Made by a program: the position numbers and the translations under genes. The notes under the pieces are model-generated. The model was given only the letters and a program-made list of their open reading frames with translations, searched no databases and had not been told where the DNA came from. Shown one piece after another: positions 317-40,750 of a DNA stretch of 40,750 bases; position 1 is the stretch's first letter, and the number at the start of each line of letters is the position of its first letter. The DNA is from an uncultured Candidatus Poseidoniales archaeon (GTDB lineage: Archaea; Thermoplasmatota; Poseidoniia; Poseidoniales; Poseidoniaceae), in assembly GCA_902625885.1 (NCBI GenBank), contig CACODE010000004.1:1-40750 (forward strand), given 5' to 3'.

Positions 317-5055
<4,739 letters not shown>

Positions 5056-20460: not shown

Positions 20461-20814
20461 ATGGCAGGAATCGATTTCTTTATTCGCCCCGCAACGGGAA
20501 CATCAAGCGCAGATTGGGTCCGAATTGCAAACGCAGACATCAAGGTCAGAATGACGCGACGCCTTACCAGAACCGTCGTGCGCGGTCAGGAAGGCGACGA
20601 CCTCCATGACGAAGGGTCAGAATCAACGTTGTACACGGTCCGAGGGGACCTCACACTTGACGAATACAAGCGGATTGTGGCCATGTTCAGAACCGGCCAA
20701 CCTTACATCCACGATCCGTTCGAAGAACGGGATGTCAAGGTTATTTTTTCCGTCATGGAATACGACAGCGCTAGCGAAGGGTTCCATTTTGAATTGCTTG
20801 AAGACGTCATTTGA
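20461..20814 (+). CDS. Small beta-rich protein upstream of the pilus motor
   Basis: 117 residues, no membrane segment or signal peptide. It begins MAGIDFFIRPATGTSSADWVRI and contains a strand pattern STLYTVRGDLTLDEYKRIV followed by GQPYIHDPFEERDVKVIF and a final FHFELLEDVI. A strand, a helix that spaces a glycine-proline loop, then two strands resembles small tail or baseplate proteins of contractile systems (gpU/Dit-like pattern), but I cannot confirm homology by eye. It ends 13 bases before the first pilus platform gene, whose Shine-Dalgarno directly follows the stop, so co-expression is likely. The name hypothetical protein is the safe one. Confidence 0.6.
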   Translation: MAGIDFFIRPATGTSSADWVRIANADIKVRMTRRLTRTVVRGQEGDDLHDEGSESTLYTVRGDLTLDEYKRIVAMFRTGQPYIHDPFEERDVKVIFSVMEYDSASEGFHFELLEDVI

Positions 20815-20827
20815 TGGAGGGTTTCAA

Positions 20828-21409
20828 ATGCGAAAACTGGAGGAAAAGCGAGAACTCCTCTATGTTATTCGCACGCTGGATGTGTTGATGTCCTCTGGAG
20901 TCGGTCTTGAGGCAGCGCTCCATACGATTGGTAAAGGCGGATACGGCATCATATCAGAGGATTTTTCATCGCTGATGAAACGGTTGCGTAAAGGAAACAG
21001 CGGCGGGCTCGATAAAGAATTGAAGTCTTTGACAAAAAAGGCGGAATCAGCAGGCTACAAACGCTTGTTGAACACGCTTTACACCAACGTCACGCAGAAC
21101 ACCGACCTTGTTGAAACCCTCAAGAAGCAGGGCACTCGGATGGAAGAAGAACGTTCAGAAGAGGTTGAAAAATACATACAAGAGTTAGGAGGCGTCCCCG
21201 AAACATTGCTTTCTATAGGCATGATTGGGCCCATCATTCTCTCCATCGTCGGGCTCGTGCCTCAATTGATGTCGGGAGACCTTGGCTCCTTTATGTCGCT
21301 ACCAGACCCGGCGGTCATCAGCACCGTGGTCAACATTGGGTTGATTCTGACGCTGGTAGGGATGGCGCTGGTTGGGCTCAAAGCCCACACAAAAGATCCC
21401 GGTTTGTGA
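20828..21409 (+). CDS. Type II/IV secretion platform protein, first half (TadB/C-like)
   Basis: 193 residues with the T2SF (GspF/TadC) layout: an amphipathic cytoplasmic helical bundle (about 8-115, with MSSGVGLEAALHTI and the ETLKKQGTRMEEER helix) and two membrane helices at about 126-148 and 163-185. Archaellum FlaJ carries two T2SF domains in one long chain; here the domains are separate genes, as in Tad and archaeal Epd pili. The ATG at 20828 has GGAGGG six bases upstream. The frame extends 5' to 20606 with unrelated sequence overlapping the previous gene, which is rejected. It acts with the next two genes as the inner-membrane pilus assembly platform. Confidence 0.8.
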   Translation: MRKLEEKRELLYVIRTLDVLMSSGVGLEAALHTIGKGGYGIISEDFSSLMKRLRKGNSGGLDKELKSLTKKAESAGYKRLLNTLYTNVTQNTDLVETLKKQGTRMEEERSEEVEKYIQELGGVPETLLSIGMIGPIILSIVGLVPQLMSGDLGSFMSLPDPAVISTVVNIGLILTLVGMALVGLKAHTKDPGL

Positions 21410-21418
21410 GGTGATGAA

Positions 21419-22150
21419 ATGATATTCGGTCTTCTCGAGTCGTTCAACGAATCGCCTCTTCTGCTTTATCTCGGGGTGATTGCTGTCGCCTGTGTGGGCG
21501 GTGGAATACCGCCCATGCTGGAACGTCGCCGTCGCCGAGCGATTGAAAACCAACTCCCCACCTTCTTGGAGGCTCTGTCGGATTCCGTGGGTGCCGGTCG
21601 CGGGCTACAAGAAGCGATGATGGAACAGTCCGAATCAAACGATGGCCTCTTGGCCTCTTTGCTCTCGGCGACCTTGAAAGAAGCCCACGCATCATCTTTT
21701 GAGGCAAGCCTGTCCGCCTTTGCCGCAAAAACGCGTTCCAGCCAGGTTCAGCGTGTGATGATGCTGATCGAGACAGCGATTCAACAGGACTCGTCGCTCC
21801 GTGACATTCTATCTGACTTGAGCAGAGATTACGAGCGCCTAAACGATTTGATGAACCAACGAGAAACGGAGCTATCGGGTCGCGGCATCCTCATAAACCT
21901 CTTTGTAAGCGTTGGCTTACCTGTGTTGATCGCCTTTATCGTCGGTCTGTTCGCCCCCGCTAGCAAAGGTTTCCAAATCACTGGATTTAATCAGACGTTC
22001 AGTCTGTTTTTCGCCGCAGCATCAGCCGTTGCCGTGGGCGTGTCTGGCCGCATGATGGGCCGTCTGAAAGACACGCTATGGTGGCTACCGTTGTGGATGG
22101 CAGTGTCCATGGGCCTCTATTTAGGGGCCGTCAAAGCAGTAGGAGGTTAA
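21419..22150 (+). CDS. Type II/IV secretion platform protein, second half (TadB/C-like)
   Basis: 243 residues. An N-terminal membrane helix (14-31) is followed by a basic stop-transfer ERRRRRAIENQLP. The T2SF cytoplasmic domain has the signature LPTFLEALSDSVGAGRGLQEAM and the later AIQQDSSLRDILSDLSRDY. Three further hydrophobic helices lie at about 157-176, 188-206 and 220-240. It is the partner of the upstream 193-residue platform protein. GAGGTGAT at 21408-21414 precedes the ATG and overlaps the preceding stop, so translation is coupled. It would bind the ATPase encoded next and turn its strokes into pilin insertion. Confidence 0.85.
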   Translation: MIFGLLESFNESPLLLYLGVIAVACVGGGIPPMLERRRRRAIENQLPTFLEALSDSVGAGRGLQEAMMEQSESNDGLLASLLSATLKEAHASSFEASLSAFAAKTRSSQVQRVMMLIETAIQQDSSLRDILSDLSRDYERLNDLMNQRETELSGRGILINLFVSVGLPVLIAFIVGLFAPASKGFQITGFNQTFSLFFAAASAVAVGVSGRMMGRLKDTLWWLPLWMAVSMGLYLGAVKAVGG

Positions 22151-22153
22151 GCA

Positions 22154-23395
22154 ATGTCAGAACAAATACTAGAGCAATACGGGCGAGTCACGATTTACAC
22201 CGAACCAAACCACCCTTCGCCAATTTACCACGTGGACGGCGACATCCAACCGAACCCGTACGGTGACTTGGCGGCTCTGTTCGAGGACGACGCTTTGGAA
22301 GAAGTGATGTACAACGGTGGGACGCAGTGCGTCAAAGTGGCCCACCGCAACCACGGTATGTGCCGGACAAACATATGGATTGACGACGAATCCGGGCTTC
22401 AAATTGCAAAGAACATCGCTTCCTACACCAACGTTCCTCTTGGCGATGGACCCGGTCTGGTACCGATTTTTGATGGACGTCTCCCGGACGGCTCCAGAGT
22501 AAACGGCACCATTCCTCCTGTCTCTCCGGATGGGCCAACGTTGACCATCCGTAAATTCAAGGAAGACCCGCTGACGATGATCGATTTGGTCAATTTCGGC
22601 ACGGTCAATTCGCGTCTAGCGGCGATGATGTGGGTGTGGATTGAGGGTCTGGACAGCCGACCGGCGAACTTCGTCATCGCGGGAGGCACAGGTTCTGGAA
22701 AGACAACCACGCTGAACTGCCTTGGCATGTACATCCCTTGGTCGCGGCGGCTCCTGACCGTAGAGGACACCGCTGAATTGCAAGTGTATCACGACCATTG
22801 GCTGCGCATGGAAACCCGCAGAGAGCGCCCTGATGGGACGCCAGAGGTTGACATGAACGATTGCCTGAAATCAAGCCTTCGAATGCGACCGGATCGCATC
22901 ATTGTCGGAGAGGTTCGCGGCCCTGAGTGCGCCACCCTCTTGACGGCCATGAACACGGGCCACGACGGTTCGTTCGGCTCGCTTCACGCCAACACCGCGC
23001 AAGAAACCGTCACTCGGATGATCAATCCGCCCATGAGCGTCCCACCTATCATGCTCAGCGGTCTTGATCTCATCATCATTCAAGCGCGCCTCCACGTCAA
23101 CGGCAAGACCGCCAGAAAAATCACCGAAGTGGCTGAGGTCGCCGGTATGGAAGGCGATAAGCCTCGCCTCAACGCCATTTGGAAGTACAACGCCGCAACC
23201 GATCAAATCGAAGAAACCGGCATACCCTCCAAGCTCCGGGAGACCATCTGCAATGCCGCCGGTGTCACGCCGGACGTGTTTGAAAAGCACGTGGCACAAC
23301 GACAAGCCATCATTGAGGACCTTTGCCAACGCGGTATTTCCGACATACAAACGGTGACGTCCGTTGTGCAGAATTTTTACGCACAGCAGCACTGA
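22154..23395 (+). CDS. Type IV pilus assembly ATPase (TadA/CpaF/FlaI-like)
   Basis: A 413-residue hexameric secretion ATPase. Walker A GGTGSGKT is at 177-184, the Asp box VED at 203-205, Walker B RIIVGEVRG with E253, and the His box HDGSFGSLHA at 270-279. The N-terminal sequence TIRKFKEDPLTMIDLVNFGT is characteristic of the TadA/CpaF branch and of archaeal relatives. AGGAGG at 22141-22146 precedes the ATG. With the two platform genes this is a minimal pilus or secretion motor. No pilin or prepilin peptidase adjoins it; the nearest pilin-like gene is 4.1 kb downstream. Its stop codon abuts the convergent SAP gene. Confidence 0.93.
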   Translation: MSEQILEQYGRVTIYTEPNHPSPIYHVDGDIQPNPYGDLAALFEDDALEEVMYNGGTQCVKVAHRNHGMCRTNIWIDDESGLQIAKNIASYTNVPLGDGPGLVPIFDGRLPDGSRVNGTIPPVSPDGPTLTIRKFKEDPLTMIDLVNFGTVNSRLAAMMWVWIEGLDSRPANFVIAGGTGSGKTTTLNCLGMYIPWSRRLLTVEDTAELQVYHDHWLRMETRRERPDGTPEVDMNDCLKSSLRMRPDRIIVGEVRGPECATLLTAMNTGHDGSFGSLHANTAQETVTRMINPPMSVPPIMLSGLDLIIIQARLHVNGKTARKITEVAEVAGMEGDKPRLNAIWKYNAATDQIEETGIPSKLRETICNAAGVTPDVFEKHVAQRQAIIEDLCQRGISDIQTVTSVVQNFYAQQH

Positions 23396-30486: not shown

Positions 30487-32502
30487 CTAACCGTGCCGAC
30501 CAAAGTGGTGGTCAAGACTATCAATGGAAATCCTGAGTGATGTCGGCCGTCCGTGAACGCAAGCCCACGGATTTGGAATGCGCCGCATGTCGTCCAAGAG
30601 TCGCCTCATTTCCGGCAACGTCAAACGGTCGTTGGCCTTAACCGCACCTCTGCACGCATTCATGAACGCGATGTGGTCTTTCTTCGCCTCAACCGTCTCC
30701 AACGGTCCGCCATCGTCCGCCAGGTCTTGAAGGAGGTCAATAAAAAACGAACGCAATTCATCGCCTTCAATGAGTTGGGGCGAGGCCGTAATGGACCATG
30801 CACCGTCATCTTCGTTGGTGAGGTGGAAGCCAAGTTCATGCAGCCTTGTCTCGTGAGCGTCCACGAGGGCCGCCTGCCTCGCATCGAGGTTGAGTCGGAG
30901 CGGCGATAGCCTTTCCTGAGGCGCCCACGCTTGCCCGCTGTACCTCAGTCGCTCGTACCGCACACGCTCATGCAAGGCGTGCTGATCGATCAGCAGCAAT
31001 TCGTCCTCGGCTTGAACCAAGATGTAGGAATTGGCAAACTGAGCCAAGGGCTCCATGTGCGGCAGTTCGTTCAACTCTCCCTCAAGCGGTGCTTCTGCCA
31101 CGGGCCGCCTTGTTTTGCCACAGCCTGCATGCCTGTGAAGCGTCCGTTCTGCAGAAGAAAGCGGCGCTGATAGCGGCTGTTCGGGCAGGTCCGGGAGGAC
31201 GGTTTGCCCGTGAGGCGAGGAGGAAAGTGGACGAGGTTTTGGGACGGTCTTTGCTTCGTCGGCCTGTTCACCAATGAGGTTGAGCTGTTTGCCTGCAGCG
31301 ATGGCCCATGCAGGGGGTTGCGCAGCGGGTTGAGTCTCTGCGGAAGTTGATGTGGCAAGCCCGGCGGCTGAGACGAGGGAAGTGCTGGCATCATTGGGCG
31401 AGATAGGTGCTAAGTAGGTCTCTACCGACTTGACTTTCTTATCGTCTGTCAGGCCCTGAAGTCCCGGAATCCCGCCGGTTGCATCGGGTTCTGTAGGCGT
31501 GGACTCCAGCGTATGGGCAATGGCCCGTTCCAGCCGTTCTAGCACGCGCCAGGAGTGCCTGAGACGCACTTCTCTTTTTGTGGGGTGGACGTTAACATCA
31601 ACCTCCTCAGGGGGGCATTCCAGGTTGATGACGGCTAAGGGGTGTCGGCCTTGCATCAATCTGGTCTTGTAACCTCGCCGTATGGCTTGGAGGAAAGGTC
31701 CGGCGGCGACGGGTCGCTGGTTGATCAGGACGTGGATGTCGTCGCCTTTGCCGCGAGTGATGTCAGGCGTGCTAATGTAGCCACTCCAGCGTTCGTTGCC
31801 GGGAGCGTCCTCATCGTCTGGTGGCCGTACCAAAGCCACCAGTTCGGTTGCTTGCGCGCCCATGATGTCGTAAAGTCGGTCGAGCATGTTGTCCGTAGCG
31901 GGAACGTTGAGCAGCGTTCTTCGCTCGGTCTTCAGATGAAATCCACAACCGGGGTTTGCCAGGGCGTGGTCAACCACAACATCGACAACACGCGCTGTTT
32001 CGGTCTCGGGCCGACGTTGAAAGGCGAGGCGTGCAGGCGTGTTTTGAAACAGGTGTTCCACGGAAATCGCTGTACCGTTTGCCATGCCAAAAGGTTGCAC
32101 ATCGGACTTCACGCCGTCTTCCATCACGACGCTTGCGCCCTCTTCTCCTTGGGGTTTGCTCGCTATTTGCAGTCTGGAGACCATGCCGATGCTTGCCAGT
32201 GCTTCACCTCTGAACCCCAGCGAGGCAATGGACGACAAATCCTCCTTTCGGCTGAGTTTTGAGGTGGCGTGCCTGTCAAGTGCAAGCGAGAGGTCAGAAC
32301 GGTCGATTCCGCTTCCATTGTCCTCAACCAGAATACGGTCAAAACCGCCTCTCTCCACGGTGATCACAACGGTTGTGGCGTTCGCATCTAGGCTGTTTTC
32401 GATCAACTCCTTGACGACTTGAGCCGGTCGCTCGACGACTTCTCCGGCCGCAATGAAGCCGATGGTAGCGTCGTCCAATTGCTTGATTTTCCGAGGTTTC
32501 AT
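30487..32502 (-). CDS. mutL: DNA mismatch repair protein MutL (endonuclease type)
   Basis: GHKL ATPase that links MutS to strand removal. The N-terminus has ELIENSLDANA (catalytic E36), DNGSGI and GFRGEALASI. A low-complexity linker (about 330-470) leads to the dimerisation domain, with the endonuclease motif DQHALHERVRYE at 506-517, which fits DQHA-x2-E-x4-E. Later motifs ACRGAVKA and CVHGRP match the zinc-site elements. This MutL should therefore nick DNA itself, consistent with no MutH being present. It has 671 residues. Its start overlaps the mutS stop by four bases (ATGA). Mut proteins in archaea are thought to come from bacteria. Confidence 0.96.
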   Translation of the reverse strand: MKPRKIKQLDDATIGFIAAGEVVERPAQVVKELIENSLDANATTVVITVERGGFDRILVEDNGSGIDRSDLSLALDRHATSKLSRKEDLSSIASLGFRGEALASIGMVSRLQIASKPQGEEGASVVMEDGVKSDVQPFGMANGTAISVEHLFQNTPARLAFQRRPETETARVVDVVVDHALANPGCGFHLKTERRTLLNVPATDNMLDRLYDIMGAQATELVALVRPPDDEDAPGNERWSGYISTPDITRGKGDDIHVLINQRPVAAGPFLQAIRRGYKTRLMQGRHPLAVINLECPPEEVDVNVHPTKREVRLRHSWRVLERLERAIAHTLESTPTEPDATGGIPGLQGLTDDKKVKSVETYLAPISPNDASTSLVSAAGLATSTSAETQPAAQPPAWAIAAGKQLNLIGEQADEAKTVPKPRPLSSSPHGQTVLPDLPEQPLSAPLSSAERTLHRHAGCGKTRRPVAEAPLEGELNELPHMEPLAQFANSYILVQAEDELLLIDQHALHERVRYERLRYSGQAWAPQERLSPLRLNLDARQAALVDAHETRLHELGFHLTNEDDGAWSITASPQLIEGDELRSFFIDLLQDLADDGGPLETVEAKKDHIAFMNACRGAVKANDRLTLPEMRRLLDDMRRIPNPWACVHGRPTSLRISIDSLDHHFGRHG

Positions 32503-35138
32503 GACGGTTCCTCCAAATCTGTTTTCAACGCATACAGAACGTCCAGCGCCTGCCTTGGACTAAGTTCGTCAACATTGGTTTCGTCCAGTCTTTTGAGGAG
32601 GTTTTCGACACCTGGCGATAACTTCGCTTCGGCTTTCGCCGAAGTCCCCATCGCTGCAGCGGCAAAATACCCCATCAGACTCGCCTGACCGGCGTCTCTT
32701 GACTGCGGTGTTCCCTGTTCGCCGGCCTTGGCCCCTCCGGCTTGACGTTCGAGAAAAGCGAGCAGGTCGGTCGCTCTTTCGACGACGTTCCTTGGCAGGC
32801 CAGCCAAGGCGGCGACCTGTACGCCATAGGAATCATCGCACGGACCGTCGGCAACCGTGTGAAGAAATCGCAATTGGCCATCCGCTCGAGCGACCTGAAC
32901 ATGAACATTGCACAAGCCGCGAATTTCCTGTTCCAACCCAATCAATTGATGGTAATGCGTTGCAAACAGGGTTCGAGCACCGATTCGCATGCAGATGTCT
33001 TCCGTCACCGACCATGCGATGGATAAACCGTCAAAGGTGGACGTACCTCGCCCGATTTCATCGAGCAAAACAAGTGATTTTTCGGTCGCACGCTTGAGGA
33101 TGTGCGCCACCTCAATCATTTCCATCATGAACGTCGAGCGCCCACGTTTGAGGTCGTCACTCGCCCCCACCCTGGTAAAAATCCGATCAACGAGGCCCAA
33201 TTTTGCCTGACTGGCAGGAACAAAACATCCCGCTTGAGCGAGGACGGAAACCAAAGCCACCGTGCGCAGGTACGTCGACTTTCCACCCATGTTTGGTCCG
33301 GTTATCAGCAAGAAATTGCGTTTCGGGTTCATGTGCACGTCGTTGGGGACAAAGCCAGGCTGGTTTTCAAGAACAGGATGCCGGGCGCCTTCGAGTTTGA
33401 TGCCGAGTTGCTCTGTCATTTCGGGTTTCGTCCAGTTTCGCTCGCGGCTGACCGCCGCATAGCACTGCAAGACATCGATAGAAGCCACTCGCCTCGCGAT
33501 ATCGGCGAGCGTTGAAGAAAAGGTGGCGCAGTACGTTCGCAATTCTTGGAAGCGCCTGTATTCCAGCTCCTTCAGCTTCGAATCCGCTGTGAGCAAGAGG
33601 TCGTCGCGCCGGACAAGTTCTTCGGTGGTGTACCGAGAACCGTTCGTCAGTTGCTGCTTTCGCCGCCAATCCTCCGGCACCTTGTCTAGGTGTGTTTGGG
33701 TGACTTCGATGTACCAACCCACCTGGCGGTTGTTCTTCACCTTCAGCGATGGAATTTCCAACGTTTCCCGCAGGTTTCTTTCAAGCTCGGTGAACCATGC
33801 TTTCCCTTCGCCGGTGACGTTGCGAAGTTCATCGACTTCTTCATCAACGCCTGATTGAAGCAAACCTCCATCGCGAAGGCCGATCGGCGGTTCGGGTTTG
33901 AGCGTGTTCTGGATGGTTTTCATCATCTCCTGCAGTCCGTCGAGACCTTCCGACAAGTGGGCCAACAAGGGGTCTTGGCTGTCTCGGCACCAATTCATCA
34001 GGGCCGGCATGCGCTCCAAAGCATGCGATGTGGCGACAAGGTCGCGTGCGTTGCTGCGGTTGTAGGCCAGTTGCGTGGCAAGCCGCTCCATATCCCGTAT
34101 GCCTTTGAGGGATTCTCGCATACCGTCCAACCTTCTTGCTGAGCGGGCGAGGGACGAGACGGCTTGATGCCGTGTTTGTATGGCTTCTTTGTCCGAGAGC
34201 GGGTTCAAGAGCCATGTTTTGAGCAGGCGACGGCCCATGGCGGTCCGGCAACGGTTGAGTGTTGACAACAAGCTTCCGTCAAACTCACCAGCCAGCGTTG
34301 TGGTCAGTTCGAGGTTCCGCAACGTTGTCTGGTCGATCAATAGATGGCTTTGCTCTTCAAGGATCTCAACATCTTGAAGCGGAATTTCCGTTCGCAGGTG
34401 CACGGTCGCTAGGTAGTCAGCGGCAAGTCCGGCCGCCGACAAGGCTAGCGGAGCATGGTCCAAGTCCAAGTGGCCCAAATCCGCCACATTGAGCATGCTT
34501 TGAAGACGCTCCTGTCCCTTTTTTTGCGCGAGCTTGTGTTGACTGACCATCACGCCTTCGAGGCGCGGGAAAAAGGTGACAAGGTCGTCGTTCCCTGCAT
34601 CTTTTGGTGAAAGGACAAGTTCGCTCGGTTGCCACCTCAACAGGTCGTCTTGGAATCGAGCGTATCGGTCATGGCCTTGGTGAGTTGACGCCCATGCCTT
34701 TCCCGTGGAGGCGTCAATAACCGCTAAGCCCAAGGCATCCTTTTCCAACACCACGGCGCCGAGCAGCGACTGCTCGTTTCCCTCAAGCAACCCTTCCTCA
34801 AAGAGGCTGCCCGGCGTGTAGACACGCGTGACCACGCGCTCAAGGAGTTTGGCTCCAGGCCTCAATTCCTCCTCTTGTTCGGCAACGGTCACCTTGTAGC
34901 CGGCCCGAAGCATGGTGCGGAGGTGGTCTTGAAGGCCGTGCCATGGAAAACCGGCCATTGGAATGGGCTCCTCTGCGTTCTTGTCTCGGGAGGTGAGCGA
35001 GAGCCCGAGAACATCTGCAGCAACTTCTGCATCGTCGTGGAACAGTTCGTAAAAATCGCCCATACGGAAAAAGAGAATCGTATCTGGATGCTGTTCTTTG
35101 ATGTCAAAGAACTGGTCCATCATTCCTCTTTTTGTCAC
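32499..35138 (-). CDS. mutS: DNA mismatch repair protein MutS
   Basis: Mismatch-recognition ATPase of the MutS1 family. FFRMGDFYELF near residue 25 contains the mismatch-wedging Phe-x-Glu. The connector, lever and clamp domains follow (EYRRFQELRTYCATF). The ATPase has GPNMGGKSTYLR near 613-624, then DEIGRGTSTFDGLS and ATHYHQL. A C-terminal helix-turn-helix dimerisation segment closes it (about 835-880). It has about 879 residues. The start is uncertain: GTG at 35138 has GGAG upstream, TTG at 35153 lacks one, and ATG at 35123 corresponds to the conserved MMxQ start. It is the first gene of a mutS-mutL operon. Confidence 0.97.
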   Translation of the reverse strand: MTKRGMMDQFFDIKEQHPDTILFFRMGDFYELFHDDAEVAADVLGLSLTSRDKNAEEPIPMAGFPWHGLQDHLRTMLRAGYKVTVAEQEEELRPGAKLLERVVTRVYTPGSLFEEGLLEGNEQSLLGAVVLEKDALGLAVIDASTGKAWASTHQGHDRYARFQDDLLRWQPSELVLSPKDAGNDDLVTFFPRLEGVMVSQHKLAQKKGQERLQSMLNVADLGHLDLDHAPLALSAAGLAADYLATVHLRTEIPLQDVEILEEQSHLLIDQTTLRNLELTTTLAGEFDGSLLSTLNRCRTAMGRRLLKTWLLNPLSDKEAIQTRHQAVSSLARSARRLDGMRESLKGIRDMERLATQLAYNRSNARDLVATSHALERMPALMNWCRDSQDPLLAHLSEGLDGLQEMMKTIQNTLKPEPPIGLRDGGLLQSGVDEEVDELRNVTGEGKAWFTELERNLRETLEIPSLKVKNNRQVGWYIEVTQTHLDKVPEDWRRKQQLTNGSRYTTEELVRRDDLLLTADSKLKELEYRRFQELRTYCATFSSTLADIARRVASIDVLQCYAAVSRERNWTKPEMTEQLGIKLEGARHPVLENQPGFVPNDVHMNPKRNFLLITGPNMGGKSTYLRTVALVSVLAQAGCFVPASQAKLGLVDRIFTRVGASDDLKRGRSTFMMEMIEVAHILKRATEKSLVLLDEIGRGTSTFDGLSIAWSVTEDICMRIGARTLFATHYHQLIGLEQEIRGLCNVHVQVARADGQLRFLHTVADGPCDDSYGVQVAALAGLPRNVVERATDLLAFLERQAGGAKAGEQGTPQSRDAGQASLMGYFAAAAMGTSAKAEAKLSPGVENLLKRLDETNVDELSPRQALDVLYALKTDLEEPS

Positions 35139-35246
35139 GGGTGCACGCTCCAAGGCTTACGCTGGGGTTTGGCAAAGCCGACGAGGGCACATGAAGGTTC
35201 TCAATGAAATGGATTGAGCGTGCCTTTTTCTTGGCAGAATGTCGGA

Positions 35247-36452
35247 TTAATTTGAGCCTCTCAGTTGCTCGGCGGCGTGCCACAACATCATGGCGATCAG
35301 TATGCTGCCGACCAGGAGGAAAAGAAGGTTCAAGAAACCTCGACCGCTCTCTATAGAACCGTCCATTGTTATGTCAATTGACCACTGAATCGGTTGGCCA
35401 TTGGCGTCCGTACCGTGCACGTGCACGTGCGAATCAACAGCACCAGCATCGACCACATCGACGGGTATCGGGCGACTCAGCTGATGGACGGTGGTCTGGC
35501 CGTTGTTGTAGGTGGCAAGGTTCTCGGCGCCGATCGGTCCGATGAACCACGCTGTGCCTTCTTCGTCTGCGACGACGAGGGCAGATGGCACGTCAAGTCG
35601 TTCAATCTCCTGATTTGGAGACACGACGAGGCTTTCAACCGTTCCACCAACTATTAGGTTGTCCCCGGACCGAGCGAAACTGTGGAAGACACCGGCATCA
35701 AAGGAGTGGACGGCCATGAGTTCGGGCGTGTCTTGACCGCCGGGCCAAGCGATCCAACCCAGCACCGGATTGGACTGGGGAGTTGCTGGGCTGGAGCCGT
35801 CTTCGCCAACAGCGCTGGCTTCCAAGCCAATCGCCACCCATAATCCGTCCGAAAACCAAGCAAGATTTGTCCAGTGCGTGCCCGACGATGTGGACATGGG
35901 GTGGGTTGGTAAGAAGCCGTCGTGGACGCCACGGAACGATGTGTTGGTGTTTTCACTCGTTAACATCAATCCCGCAAAACCTGTGCTCCCGCCGGGGGTT
36001 GCGACATCGAGAACAGTGAAATTTCCGTTCGTGTTTGGGAAGTCAATGTACGTCATTCCTCCATGGATATCGATGGATAACAATTGGTTTTGCAGGGTTG
36101 AAAAGTAGACTTCGCCGTTTTCAGTTGTTTTAAGGAAATTCAACTTTTTCGCGTCCTCTTGCGATAGAACCAATGCAGTGTCGTCGTTTTTGCCGCTTTT
36201 TTGAAGCATCTGGTGGCCGTCGGTGGGCGAGTAAACGAGCGACGTGTAATATCCGGTTTTTGAACCGTATTCGATCTCGGTCACGAAGGCGTCCTTGAGC
36301 ATGCCGTCGGGTTCCGTAATTCTGTCACCCACAAAGTGCTCCGTTGCGTTGATGGCAAGGGCACCGATGACGACGAAGACGATGAAAAAAGAAAGCGTGA
36401 GCCATTGGTGCTCGGATTCCTCTTCGAGGAGACGTCGCCAGCCGCCGGCCAT
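35247..36452 (-). CDS. Membrane-anchored protein with a beta-rich outer domain, unknown
   Basis: 401 residues. An N-terminal helix (about 16-36, LTLSFFIVFVVIGALAI) and a C-terminal helix (about 370-390, FLNLLFLLVGSILIAMML) bracket a region of about 330 residues with repeated short strand-turn units (GLWVAIGLE, GWIAWPGG, NLIVGGTV, GTAWFIGP). This suggests a beta-propeller outside the cell. The short N- and C-terminal tails are cytoplasmic. I do not recognise a family. The start at 36452 is preceded, about 12-20 bases away, by the palindrome GGGGACCCC and then by a TATA-like TATGATA. It lies upstream of mutS on the same strand with 94-108 bases between, so it could be a separate unit. Confidence 0.65.
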   Translation of the reverse strand: MAGGWRRLLEEESEHQWLTLSFFIVFVVIGALAINATEHFVGDRITEPDGMLKDAFVTEIEYGSKTGYYTSLVYSPTDGHQMLQKSGKNDDTALVLSQEDAKKLNFLKTTENGEVYFSTLQNQLLSIDIHGGMTYIDFPNTNGNFTVLDVATPGGSTGFAGLMLTSENTNTSFRGVHDGFLPTHPMSTSSGTHWTNLAWFSDGLWVAIGLEASAVGEDGSSPATPQSNPVLGWIAWPGGQDTPELMAVHSFDAGVFHSFARSGDNLIVGGTVESLVVSPNQEIERLDVPSALVVADEEGTAWFIGPIGAENLATYNNGQTTVHQLSRPIPVDVVDAGAVDSHVHVHGTDANGQPIQWSIDITMDGSIESGRGFLNLLFLLVGSILIAMMLWHAAEQLRGSN

Positions 36453-36606: not shown

Positions 36607-37146
36607 ATGGCACGTAAACCCGCAGTCATGTACCGCCGATTAAAAGGCCCAGCCTACACCCGCCGCAAGTACATCGGTGGTGTTCCTAACAACCGTATCA
36701 TGCAGTTCCATGTCGGAAACCGCCGGGCTGCTGAGACAGGGCAATTTCAAGTCGTTCTTGAGTTGCGAGCGGACAACGATGTGCAAATCCGACACACGGC
36801 GCTTGAAGCCGCTCGTGTGGTCTCAAATTCCACCATTCGTAAGGAAGCAGGAGCGCAAGGCTACGCCCTTCGTGTCCACACCTTCCCGCACCACGTGCTT
36901 CGTGAAAACAAGCAAGCAACTGGAGCGGGCGCTGACCGTGTTTCTCAAGGCATGCGTTGCGCATTTGGCAAGAACGTCGGCACCGCTGCTCGTGTGAAGC
37001 GAGGCCAGCGCGTCATCTCTATTCATGTCAATGCGGAACACTACTTGACCGCTCGAGATGCCCTGCGCAAGGCCAGCATGAAATTCCCAACCCCGTGCAC
37101 CACCCGCCTCGTTCGCGGGCACGAGCACCTCAAGGGACTCATTTGA
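36607..37146 (+). CDS. rpl10e: Ribosomal protein L10e (universal uL16)
   Basis: A 179-residue large-subunit protein. It begins MARKPAVMYRRLKGPAYTRRKYIGG, a typical L10e N-terminus, and contains HHVLRENKQATGAGADRVSQGMR (the loop near the peptidyl-transferase centre), CAFGKNVGTAARV and RDALRKASMKFP. It binds 23S rRNA near the A site and the P-stalk base. Its frame continues upstream to 36295 without homology; the ATG at 36607 with GGAGG is the true start. It is followed by abce1, another translation factor, in the same direction. Confidence 0.95.
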   Translation: MARKPAVMYRRLKGPAYTRRKYIGGVPNNRIMQFHVGNRRAAETGQFQVVLELRADNDVQIRHTALEAARVVSNSTIRKEAGAQGYALRVHTFPHHVLRENKQATGAGADRVSQGMRCAFGKNVGTAARVKRGQRVISIHVNAEHYLTARDALRKASMKFPTPCTTRLVRGHEHLKGLI

Positions 37147-37215: not shown

Positions 37216-38985
37216 ATGAGAGTCGCCGTCGTCGTACAGGAGCGTTGCAAACCCAAAAGCAACGCGTATCTGTACCTCCAAAAATGGTCCCAAATGTGCG
37301 ATAAAGAGTGCATTATCGTTGAAGGAAAAACGGTGAAAATATCCGAATTTGCCTGCCCACCCTGCGTCGTTCGGGCGAGATTGTGCCCCGATGATGCCGT
37401 GATCATCATCAATCTACCCTCCGAGCTCGATACCGACATGATACACCGGTTTTCCCTCAACGGTTTCCGCTTGTTTCGCCTACCGACACCCAGCCAGGAA
37501 AGGGTGGTTGGTATCCTAGGACCAAACGGCATGGGTAAATCAACGGCGATGAGCGTCCTTTCCGGTCGCCTGGTACCAAATCTTGGTGATTGGGAAAACA
37601 AAGAACCTGCCTGGGGTGAAGTCATTGAAACCCTTCCGAGAGGAGAACTGAGGGACTTCCTGAGCGCCGTTGAGGAACGCTCGGTGAAGGTAGCGCTTAA
37701 GCCCCAAAACGTCGACAGAATCCCGAAACGGGTCTCTGGAACCGTTTCTTCCCTTTTGGAAAAGGTCGACGAACGGCATCAGTTGGACCGGTTGATCGTG
37801 GATCTCGGCATCGATCATCTCATGAGCAGAACACTGGACGAACTCTCCGGCGGTGAGCTCCAAAGGGTCGCGATATGCGCCACACTCCTACGAGATGCCG
37901 ACGTGTATTTTTTTGACGAACCCTCCTCGTACCTTGATATCCACGAACGAATGAGGATTGTGAAAATCATCCAACAACTGGCTGAGGAAAAGCGCGTCAT
38001 CGTTATTGAACACGACCTTGCTGTGCTTGACGTGCTGGCGGATTTGATTCACATCGTTTACGGCGTAAAAGGAGCGTACGGCATTTTTACACCGGCCCGG
38101 AACACGCGCAAAGCCATCAACGCTTATCTCGACGGTTTTCTTCAGGAGCAGAACGTGCGCATTCGTGAAAAACCCATCAGTTTTCTCCGCCATAGGGACA
38201 GAAAGGCAGGTTCAGAGAGCCCCGTAATTCAGTGGGGAGGCTTGAAGAAGGCTCTAGGTGAGTTTACGCTTACATCTGGCGAAGGAGCCGTGCATCGGTC
38301 CGAAGTGGTCGGTGTTGTTGGCTCGAACGGCACCGGAAAATCAACGATGATCAAAATCCTGGCGGGTGAGCAAGAATACGACGAGGGTTGGGTCACAGCT
38401 GACGCCACCATTTCCTACAAACCGCAGCACATCGACGTTGACATTGACGGTACGGTTCAACTTTGGCTGGACAGCGAACTCGGCCCGAGTTGGAGGAGCG
38501 GCGAATTTAACGTCAACGTGATCAAAGCCTTGGGCGTTGACCAGCTCCTCACGAAGCGGGTCAAGAAACTGTCTGGGGGTGAGCGACAAGCCGTCTCCAT
38601 CGCTGTATGTCTGGGCAGGGATGCCGATCTCTACCTTCTTGACGAACCCTCGGCACATCTGGACGCTAACGCTCGAATGGAGGCCGCAAAGGCGATACGC
38701 AGAACGATGGAAGCAAACGAAAAATCAGCTTTTGTCATCGACCATGACGTGTATTTCATCGACATTGTATCGGATTCCTTGCTCGTCTTTGAGGGGGAGG
38801 GCGGCGTTCACGGAACGGCCAACGGTCCTTTCAACCTCCGGGACGGCATGAACCGATTCCTATCTGGCGTGGACGTGACCTTCCGAAGGGACCACGATTC
38901 GAAGCGCCCACGAATCAACAAAAACGAGAGCAGAAAGGACAGGGAACAACGAAGCAGTGGTGACTACTATTCTTACGATTCATAG
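37216..38985 (+). CDS. abce1: ABCE1 (RLI) ribosome-recycling ATPase with an altered Fe-S domain
   Basis: Twin-ATPase that splits ribosomes after termination with aRF1/Pelota. NBD1 has Walker A GPNGMGKST (102-110), signature LSGGELQR (210-217) and DEP with D234/E235; NBD2 has GSNGTGKST (369-377) and LSGGERQA (452-459). Both Walker B motifs end DEPS-x-x-LD. With 589 residues it has the usual length. The N-terminal domain is odd: canonical C-x4-C-x3-C-x3-CP is reduced to C11, and the second motif reads C47-x2-C50-x2-R53-x3-C57-P, with Arg for the third Cys. Two extra cysteines (C28, C32) occur between them. The ATG at 37216 is chosen because a ribosome site precedes it and the VVVQERC start matches the family. 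Confidence 0.95.
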   Translation: MRVAVVVQERCKPKSNAYLYLQKWSQMCDKECIIVEGKTVKISEFACPPCVVRARLCPDDAVIIINLPSELDTDMIHRFSLNGFRLFRLPTPSQERVVGILGPNGMGKSTAMSVLSGRLVPNLGDWENKEPAWGEVIETLPRGELRDFLSAVEERSVKVALKPQNVDRIPKRVSGTVSSLLEKVDERHQLDRLIVDLGIDHLMSRTLDELSGGELQRVAICATLLRDADVYFFDEPSSYLDIHERMRIVKIIQQLAEEKRVIVIEHDLAVLDVLADLIHIVYGVKGAYGIFTPARNTRKAINAYLDGFLQEQNVRIREKPISFLRHRDRKAGSESPVIQWGGLKKALGEFTLTSGEGAVHRSEVVGVVGSNGTGKSTMIKILAGEQEYDEGWVTADATISYKPQHIDVDIDGTVQLWLDSELGPSWRSGEFNVNVIKALGVDQLLTKRVKKLSGGERQAVSIAVCLGRDADLYLLDEPSAHLDANARMEAAKAIRRTMEANEKSAFVIDHDVYFIDIVSDSLLVFEGEGGVHGTANGPFNLRDGMNRFLSGVDVTFRRDHDSKRPRINKNESRKDREQRSSGDYYSYDS

Positions 38986-39024: not shown

Positions 39025-40750
39025 ATGCCGGTAGGGCATCCGCCCAGAGGTGGGCCACTCGGCAGAACCCGGGGTCGGTTATCGGCGAGCGCGCTCACAG
39101 CCTACCTTCGATGCCCGAAGCAGTGGTTCCTGAGTTATCAGCTGGGCATGCGCGGCCCTGTTCGTCCCTCTCAAATCCTTGGTATTGTCTTGGAAGACGC
39201 TGTTTGTGATTTGATGATGATGCACCCCCCGAAGGTTGAATCGTTTGAGATTTTGGAACAATGGGCTCGTCAGCAAATACCTGCGTTGGCGGATACCGCC
39301 ATGGAGCGAGGCTCGGGCATGTGGACCGAAGTGCTGTGGAAATCCTCTGAGGATGCTTGGGACGATGTGAGCCTTTCCTCACTCCAAGAACGGATCAATG
39401 GAGGGCTGTCGCTCTTCCTCGAAGAGGTGCGGTCGTGCCACGAGGCCGGTGGGGGCCCGTATCTGGAACAGAGAAGGGCGGGCGAACAACCGTTTACGGT
39501 CCCTGAACCTTGCTTGGGCCTGGCGCCAACGTTCCCTCTCCCTGACAAGGTCAGGGACGGGCAATTTCGGTCGTGGGAAGCGCCATCTTCTCCCCAATGG
39601 TCGGCAAACGGCAACGACGTAACATGGCACGAGGCGTGGGAATGTGCGAGGCCTTGGTTCAAAGACCCCCGAGTCCATCAGCCTCAACGTCTCTATCATC
39701 CCGAGGGTTGGGCTTCGGGCGAACTCGATTTGGTTCTTCGCTGGGATGGGAAGACACGCATCGTTGACATCAAATCCGGCAACACGGCTTCGGCCTTTTC
39801 TTCGTCGCTTGAGCATCAACTCCGATTTTACGCCTGGTTGTGGCACGAAACCCACGGCGGCGAACTTGTTCACGGTATGGAGGGTTGGTATCTTGAGTCC
39901 TCGGAAAGGGTGTCATTTGCAGTTCCAACCCAAGAAGAGATAGGGCAACTCACCGCAGCCTACCAAGGTTATCACAGCGCTATGCAAGACCACAGCGGTG
40001 GCGTTATCGCCTTCCCGGCCTCCAACGAAGAGGCTTGCAAACTCGACGCGGCCGGTTGCAGTTGGTGTTTGGTGGGTCGTTCAGACGGCGTTTGGACGCT
40101 ACCGGAGCCGTTTGAATGGGTGGGTGCGTTGCCCAAAATAGAGACGAAACAGCCGTACGCTCCGCTTCGTCAAGTGCAGGGCAAGGTCTCGGTCAGAGGT
40201 CGCCTAACCGGTGCATGGGGACCAATGCCAAACCATTTTTCAGAACATGTTCTAGGCGCCGTTTTGGTGGTGGGCGACCAGCACATCACGGTTGAGGAAA
40301 GCGAACCTGGGGCGTGCCCAAACCTCCACGAACTTTTGGAGCAAGAGGTGGTCTTGATCGATGCCTTGCCGGGTGTGTGGCGTGATCAAGCCAGATTGTA
40401 CGTGGACGCTCGCACACAAATGGTCTCGCTGTCTGAAGTGGCGGACAAAGACATGCCCGAGTTGACGAGGCTGGGGCTGCTTCGAACAAGGGCGAACGTG
40501 AGGGGACACGTTCTGTCCATCAACCGGCGCTCTGGGAAACGGGTTGACGGAAAACCTTGGACGATGATGTCGTTGATGTTGTGGGACGGCGACCACGTGG
40601 CTGAAGTGGTGGCGTTTGGAGCGAGCATCAATCAACGCCTCCTCTCGCTGCGGCCCGGAGACGGTTTGGCCATGACGGGTGCGGAACTTGGGTGGCGTTC
40701 AGGCATTCTTCAACTGCGTATTGACAACAGAAAAACCCGGGTTGAAACAT
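39025..40750 (+). CDS. RecB/Cas4-type Fe-S nuclease with OB-like C-terminal domains (3' end outside window)
   Basis: At least 575 residues, cut by the window edge. The N-terminal SASALTAYLRCPKQWFL, with C30, is the first helix of PD-(D/E)XK Dna2/Cas4/AddB nucleases. The active site is GELDLVL (D235), then VDIKSG (D248, K250) and EHQLRFYAW (Q265 and Y269, the Q-x3-Y motif). C338-x6-C345-x2-C348 plus C30 would hold a [4Fe-4S] iron staple. Beyond about 370 come two OB-like segments, including RANVRGHVLSI then SLMLWDGDHVAEVVAF and LRPGDGLAMTGAEL, which resemble RPA-like ssDNA-binding strands. The first ATG after an in-frame TGA at 39022 is 39025, with GAGGTGGTGAG upstream. It probably cuts or resects ssDNA; exact role unknown. 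Confidence 0.8.
   Translation, partial: MPVGHPPRGGPLGRTRGRLSASALTAYLRCPKQWFLSYQLGMRGPVRPSQILGIVLEDAVCDLMMMHPPKVESFEILEQWARQQIPALADTAMERGSGMWTEVLWKSSEDAWDDVSLSSLQERINGGLSLFLEEVRSCHEAGGGPYLEQRRAGEQPFTVPEPCLGLAPTFPLPDKVRDGQFRSWEAPSSPQWSANGNDVTWHEAWECARPWFKDPRVHQPQRLYHPEGWASGELDLVLRWDGKTRIVDIKSGNTASAFSSSLEHQLRFYAWLWHETHGGELVHGMEGWYLESSERVSFAVPTQEEIGQLTAAYQGYHSAMQDHSGGVIAFPASNEEACKLDAAGCSWCLVGRSDGVWTLPEPFEWVGALPKIETKQPYAPLRQVQGKVSVRGRLTGAWGPMPNHFSEHVLGAVLVVGDQHITVEESEPGACPNLHELLEQEVVLIDALPGVWRDQARLYVDARTQMVSLSEVADKDMPELTRLGLLRTRANVRGHVLSINRRSGKRVDGKPWTMMSLMLWDGDHVAEVVAFGASINQRLLSLRPGDGLAMTGAELGWRSGILQLRIDNRKTRVET

Follow-up and report, generated by a model that had tools for sequence, protein, structure and literature searches.

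Gene content of the locus and the N-terminal domain of its ABCE1

The window (the whole stretch of 40,750 nucleotides analysed here, from an uncultured Candidatus Poseidoniales archaeon of the family Poseidoniaceae) contains a gene for the ribosome recycling ATPase ABCE1/RLI at positions 37216-38985 of the forward strand, which starts with ATG at 37216 and encodes 589 amino acids followed by a stop codon. Upstream of it lies the uL16/L10e gene (36628-37146, start codon inferred) and downstream a PD-(D/E)XK nuclease gene that extends past the window edge (39025-40749), both on the forward strand and both the usual neighbors of ABCE1 in this family. A reverse-strand gene for a 401-aa protein between MutS and uL16 (35247-36452) yielded no match in Pfam (E<=0.01) or NCBIfam (E<=0.001). 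Elsewhere in the window of this archaeon, the genes for DNA gyrase B and A lie side by side (411-5052), two T2SSF-like proteins and a T2SSE ATPase are encoded in a row (20606-23392), perhaps as an archaeal pilus or archaellum-like cluster, and MutL adjoins MutS on the reverse strand (30490-35153), a mismatch-repair pair that is missing from many archaea.

The curated RLI equivalog NF009945 matches residues 1-587 of the ABCE1 protein with 744.4 bits (cut-off 469). The solved structures closest to it by sequence are those of archaeal ABCE1 (3j15/5lw7 and 3bk7), and the top fold match of the full-length predicted model is also ABCE1 (3bk7, 597 alignment columns). Both nucleotide-binding domains (NBDs) are complete on reading the sequence, with intact Walker A motifs (GPNGMGKST in NBD1, residues 102-110, 37519-37545; GSNGTGKST in NBD2, residues 369-377, 38320-38346; forward strand), signatures, Walker B motifs, and H-loops, in agreement with a first-pass annotation that had described both ATPase sites as looking intact. 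NBD2 carries LSGGERQ and DEPSAHLD at 38569-38664.

Proteins that have the six-cysteine N-terminal motif of the window gene are referred to here as type V, and those with all eight canonical cysteines as type C. The type V domain, the part that is exchanged between genomes, comprises residues 1-67 (37216-37416, forward strand, as are all features below), and its linkage to the type ends at about residues 66-72. Its cysteines are Cys11 (37246-37248), Cys28 (37297-37299), Cys32 (37309-37311), Cys47 (37354-37356), Cys50 (37363-37365), and Cys57 (37384-37386), and Arg53 (37372-37374) takes the place of canonical Cys 7. All seven residues, which the annotation had named and which we confirmed in the translated ORF, stand unchanged in every one of the 98 distinct V sequences, so that neither chance nor sequencing error accounts for them; the residue at the position of Arg53 is Cys in 119 of 119 C sequences. 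In all alignments made, Cys11, Cys47, Cys50, and Cys57 correspond to canonical Cys 1, 5, 6, and 8, and Cys32 is aligned with a ninth, non-canonical cysteine present in 110 of the 119 C sequences. The alignments disagree on Cys28, which was placed at canonical Cys 3 by MAFFT and at canonical Cys 4 when the V profile was aligned against the C profile, and had no cysteine opposite to it when the V profile was aligned against the outgroup, as if it were new. As read from these alignments, V retains at most five of the eight canonical cysteines: instead of the pattern C-x4-C-x3-C-x3-CP ... C-x2-C-x2-C-x3-CP, it keeps Cys 1, 5, 6, and 8, has Arg at position 7, and has no more than one of Cys 2, 3, and 4. 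The Pro that follows in the canonical motif is kept along with Cys 5, 6, and 8. A seventh, non-invariant cysteine is found in 70 of the 98 V sequences (at position 40 in all 40 of those listed), and the window gene is without it. In the region of the first cluster motif, a helix is predicted at residues 16-25 (37261-37290), with A17, Y20, and L21 invariant.

HHalign shows the V domain to be homologous to the C domain (probability 99%), and the two behave differently in family searches. A control C domain passes both Fer4_RLI (41.9 bits) and Fer4 (34.9 bits) of Pfam, whereas all matches of the V domain are below threshold (Stannin linker, 18.9 bits; the zinc ribbon Zn_ribbon_FGT1_1, 15.7 bits against a cut-off of 27; Fer4_RLI, 13.2 bits against a cut-off of 23), with zero match to Fer4; by this measure V belongs neither to the Fer4_RLI nor to the zinc-ribbon family. 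Its predicted elements follow the order beta-alpha-beta-beta-alpha-beta, which is ferredoxin-like (pLDDT mostly about 80-87), and a Foldseek search with the isolated domain model gave no match at E<=0.001, the ferredoxin 1h98 standing at rank 13 with an E value of 0.24. For the V domain, 17 V pairs gave a median dN/dS ratio of 0.017, calculated with our own script; this is as low as the value for the ATPase domains and shows that the domain is in use. The V domain is under strong purifying selection and conserved, so the term degenerate, which the first-pass annotation had applied to it, does not fit. Residue 481, in NBD2, is His in most sequences of the class, V (90 of 98) as well as C (108 of 119), and Tyr in 15 of 15 outgroup genes.

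Distribution of the two types among marine group II archaea

Searching 318 genomes from the order Poseidoniales (marine group II) with a profile of V domains gave matches in 290, which fall into two bands (V at E values of 8e-20 or better, C at 1.7e-11 or worse). These 290 genomes with a readable N-terminal domain comprise 143 V and 147 C, and V is present in 15 of the 22 genera, 11 of which hold both types. ABCE1 was found in 153 of 170 genomes of Poseidoniaceae, where full-length scores again form two bands (about 785-835 and 732-761 bits) with one gene containing undetermined bases (G037) below both; the 145 genes read in this family comprise 44 V, 99 C, and two whose domains are canonical apart from undetermined bases. 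V is found in six of its 11 genera, with C relatives alongside every time. In Thalassarchaeaceae, the second family of the order, four genera are all V, two are all C, and five are mixed. A third family, which is probably MGIII, has V in seven of 18 genes, five of which are one residue off the first motif and were included via a spacing of 14-15; within this family, Cys28-Cys32 is one residue longer in two V sequences and Cys32-Cys47 is one residue longer in the other five.

A sample of 389 genomes from the phylum, 330 of which gave a match, showed no V-level score outside these families, the top score among the other families being 51.3 bits, and the 15 outgroup ABCE1 genes read are all canonical. 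A pattern scan across GTDB provided 146 confirmed relatives; among the 80 that were retained, those named to order or lower are Poseidoniales, and the rest are labelled 'Euryarchaeota archaeon', 'Marine Group II euryarchaeote' or similar. Viral contigs contained no confirmed relative, and carriage by viruses was rejected.

Nearly all of these genomes have a single ABCE1. At E<=1e-100, a single match was present in 152 of the 153 Poseidoniaceae genomes with a match (the exception, G164, having two ABCE1 matches), and the same holds for 136 of the 137 Thalassarchaeaceae genomes with a match; a second match to the N-terminal domain was also seen in G063. The exception in Thalassarchaeaceae, G296, has a V gene together with a canonical gene typical of Poseidoniaceae on another contig (L276, G296:C45), which is probably misbinned. 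Both types also occupy one locus in Poseidoniaceae, where this was tested, with the same neighbors: over 145 loci, some misses being contig ends or short flanks, uL16 is the upstream neighbor at 42 of the 44 V loci and 87 of the 101 C loci, and the PD-(D/E)XK nuclease follows downstream, on the same strand, at all 44 V loci and 93 of the 101 C loci.

These counts bear on how the first-pass annotation had proposed to judge the unusual domain. It had looked to related genomes for the same substitutions as a sign of a lineage-wide change, and the substitutions are indeed common to about half of the genomes of the order, but the change is not simply lineage-wide given the genera that hold both types. 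Sister genomes with all eight cysteines, which it had regarded as a mark of an isolated variant or an assembly error, do exist (22 of the 27 typed genomes in the window genus are C), but the conclusion attached to them is false. As for the second canonical copy that it had also envisaged, we found none hidden in the genome itself (1.66 Mb, 70% complete), which has one ABCE1.

Putative metal site of the V domain and its role in ribosome recycling

In two-cluster ferredoxins, cysteines 1, 2, 3, and 8 usually bind cluster I and cysteines 5, 6, 7, and 4 bind cluster II. Because at most five canonical cysteines are left, V would be unable to hold both canonical clusters, and by this ligand rule neither of its sites would retain four ligands. 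With Cys28 taken as Cys 4, two ligands would remain at site I and three, in addition to Cys32, at site II; with Cys28 taken as Cys 3, three (1, 3, and 8) would remain at site I and two, again in addition to Cys32, at site II. A single Cys4 metal site appears most likely, in which Cys28-x3-Cys32 would act together with Cys47-x2-Cys50, a guess from their spacing that would leave Cys11 and Cys57 outside the site. The unsettled placement of Cys28 between Cys 3 and Cys 4 and the possibility of other sites weaken this single-site reading. Our first choice for the metal of the putative site is zinc, to which we would give slightly less than an even chance.

Another possibility is that V keeps one [4Fe-4S] cluster, held for example by Cys28, Cys47, Cys50, and Cys32, with Cys32 standing in for the lost Cys 7. 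It has the single site in common with our best explanation and differs from it in the metal, and we consider it a serious candidate, if clearly less than evenly probable. The retention of Cys 5, 6, and 8 with their Pro, the invariance of Cys32, and the arrangement CPxC...RxxxCP, which is still ferredoxin-motif-like, are what one may expect of a remaining cluster, whereas the Arg at the third cysteine of the second ferredoxin motif, the lack of any Fer4 family above its cut-off, and the one-residue variation in the Cys28-Cys32 and Cys32-Cys47 spacings of the third family are not. It is also conceivable, and in our opinion improbable, that V is metal-free and that its cysteines form disulfides (such as Cys11-Cys57) or serve as redox sensors, in which case ribosome recycling would be redox-gated. 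Cys11 and Cys57 could be suited to such a role, being canonical Cys 1 and Cys 8, which by the ferredoxin rule bind the same cluster, now short of ligands. However, six cysteines invariant in all V sequences are more than one structural disulfide requires, and stable cytosolic disulfides are unusual in mesophiles. A rearranged cluster, a zinc, and the lack of metal are also the options that the first-pass annotation had listed, and each of them keeps some probability here.

The explanation that we favor, with about an even chance of being right as a whole, is that V is part of a working recycling ATPase in which a remodelled N-terminal domain with a single Cys4 metal site keeps the lever role, a likely benefit being fewer or no Fe-S clusters. 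The two-cluster [4Fe-4S] domain of ABCE1 would have been replaced by the remodelled V domain in a gene whose remaining part is native to its genus. The intact body and the unchanged partners suggest that V would still serve as the lever, swinging when ATP binds and docking on the small subunit. Ribosomes are presumably still split by the V protein, because nearly all of these genomes show no other ABCE1.

According to two structural papers (PMC7196836; PMC5105147), the pocket that receives the Fe-S domain of ABCE1 in the post-splitting complex of archaea lies between h44, the h5-h15 junction, and uS12; the former paper also names the ABCE1 contacts K15, N17, E19, P25, and R28. When matched by residue number, without an alignment to the Sulfolobus protein, these contacts are present in one C protein of the order and absent in V, so docking may differ. 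For yeast Rli1, a review states that the cluster-coordinating cysteines are important for viability (PMC8153317). Co-evolving partners were considered and rejected: no V-specific residue was detected in uS12 (18 V and 15 C genomes), aRF1 (12 V and 13 C genomes), or Pelota (15 V and 11 C genomes). Compensating residues in the body of ABCE1 were also sought, and none is diagnostic. Pelota itself is strongly diverged in Poseidoniaceae (L417-L443), in which 26 of 30 genomes have a match at E<=1e-40 but only one reaches the curated threshold (177.65 bits).

Exchange of the N-terminal domain between lineages

Sequence identity of the N-terminal domain in Poseidoniaceae, compared for 139 of the 145 genes after removal of partial or overlong ones, is about 43% between V and C even inside a genus, 64% for V between genera, and 88% for C between genera. 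Comparisons across the class were based on 232 rows, from which partial, X-rich, and duplicate rows had been removed, together with, by hand, L276 (misbinned) and L278/L279 (the same genes as L292/L295); tests on the N-terminal domain and body trees used a random subset of 80 of these rows. In the N-terminal domain tree, V forms one clade (100/99), with a warning from the tool about few columns and long branches, and because the types themselves are defined by cysteines, the tree was also built without the ten cysteine-bearing columns, where V is still one clade (100/100). The tree of the body, by contrast, follows genus, and V as a single clade is rejected (delta lnL 956, p-AU 2.5e-64). On the body trees (residues beyond 75), the V label requires nine changes in Poseidoniaceae, at least seven of which are forced by well-supported branches, and 13 changes in the class, at least ten of them forced. 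No column of the body separates V from C (lowest V/C overlap 0.258 over the 232 rows). A domain that forms one clade on bodies that reject such a clade points to exchange of the N-terminal domain between lineages.

Mosaic profiles agree with the trees. Toward their 3' ends, V genes reach up to 94-97% DNA identity to the best-matching C gene within their genus; for example, V genes in G052 (residues 401-550, about 94%) and G103 (residues 551-589, 96.6%) closely resemble a C gene of their genus, and the N-terminal domain of each is nearest to V in the best-match identity profiles. In G013, of genus g3, the body is mostly nearest to g3 and the N-terminal domain is nearest to g7 and to g1, the window genus, with which it also groups in a tree of V domains alone (100/99). 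In the V domain tree, the Poseidoniaceae genus g6 groups with a Thalassarchaeaceae sequence (98/96). Together, the trees and mosaic profiles show that V represents a single old variant of the domain within the class Poseidoniia, one that has been swapped repeatedly with the canonical form, with at least ten changes of type. Homologous recombination at the locus is the likely route. The bodies of the V genes of the third family (L292-L298) group with those of marine group II and not with the canonical ones of their own family, and these genes may reflect whole-gene transfer between orders.

Repeated domain swapping has to be weighed against other histories. Two whole ABCE1 paralogues or xenologues that were sorted differently, with no domain swap, could explain why V is old enough to be found in three families of the class and why the bimodal scores resemble two gene lineages. 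We regard this as very unlikely, since it conflicts with the rejection of a V clade by the body, with the high identity of the 3' DNA of V genes to C genes of the same genus, and with the occurrence of two ABCE1 matches in just two of the 290 genomes with a match (153 and 137 in the two families). Many convergent losses of cysteines on native genes would account for V on bodies native to many genera, but have even less to recommend them, as V remains a single clade when the cysteine columns are removed and crosses genus lines (G013, and g6 with Thalassarchaeaceae), few columns and long branches being caveats to this tree. Finally, most of the named records are metagenome-assembled, but an assembly or binning artefact or a decaying gene is practically negligible and was ruled out by the spread of V over about half of the genomes of the order, by strong purifying selection, by the lack of internal stops in the matches listed, and by the presence of V in records with AG-/AH- isolate names, presumably single-cell genomes (L188, L190, L193, L194, L198, L205, and L209).

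Possible association of the V domain with niche-related genes

In Poseidoniales, a single rhodopsin gene is replaced in place by transferred blue- or green-tuned copies (PMC6461757). We separated rhodopsin types by score, and among 18 genes read, 13 had Gln (blue) and four Met (green) as expected, the motif not being found in one. Gln rhodopsin is present in 54 of 143 V and eight of 147 C genomes, and the association with V holds among rhodopsin carriers when stratified by genus (CMH, OR 7.0, p 1.6e-4); it is not significant in independent pairs of branches (only 5-6 pairs, starred branches). A second trait, NiSOD, alternates with Fe/MnSOD in marine group II (PMC10783094). NiSOD is rarer with V (63 of 143, versus 113 of 147 C genomes; overall p 1.2e-8), with no significant difference inside genera (p 0.1). 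As NiSOD is a possible sign of iron sparing, its rarity with V was counted against that reading. These patterns are suggestive of a tie between V and ocean niche. We hypothesize that iron sparing or oxidant hardening is the reason for V, and the benefit, toward which the present data point faintly, might be ribosome recycling that depends on fewer Fe-S clusters, or on none, under iron scarcity or high oxidant levels. Tentatively, and as something somewhat less than evenly probable, we propose that V works without iron, as a zinc-bound or metal-free lever, in about half of marine group II species, that Fe-S clusters would then be dispensable for splitting, and that iron-dependent and iron-free domain cassettes may be swapped in a manner that tracks ocean niche.

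Comparison with known systems and implications

V resembles ABCE1/Rli1 (NF009945; 3bk7, 3j15, 6tmf) in its two full NBDs, its alignment through to the C-terminus, its normal occurrence as one gene, and its fold match to 3bk7, but differs in its N-terminal domain, where no more than five of the eight cluster cysteines are left, Arg replaces Cys 7, the first cluster motif contains a predicted helix, and neither Fer4 nor Fer4_RLI matches above its cut-off. It is ABCE1 by descent, but not by the two-cluster domain that defines ABCE1. The closest parallel in the same archaea is the proteorhodopsin 'overwrite' (PMC6461757), in which a single-copy gene is also replaced in place by a transferred, niche-linked alternative; there a whole accessory gene is exchanged, whereas V concerns one domain of an essential translation factor and leaves most of the gene native. 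Mycobacteria likewise have metal-binding and metal-independent forms of translation components, but their zinc-free versions of zinc ribosomal proteins are paralogues used on zinc limitation (PMC8866557), whereas V and C replace one another from genome to genome, and the residues concerned are Fe-S cysteines. Among the matches listed from open-licence literature (without preprints), none dealt with ABCE1 of these archaea or with a natural ABCE1 lacking cluster cysteines, and no paper joined 'ABCE1' and 'Poseidoniales' in the literature searched.

V offers a direct test of why a mechanical lever should require two iron clusters that are sensitive to oxygen, as a natural, abundant form under purifying selection that is short of two-cluster ligands and has an otherwise normal body, and it can be compared with C on closely similar ATPase cores. 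That a domain has been exchanged among genera and families, and probably among orders, within a translation gene that is essential and normally present in one copy bears on the use of such genes as phylogenetic markers and on the iron ecology of the ocean. Ribosome recycling may run on less or no iron in an abundant archaeal order of the surface ocean.
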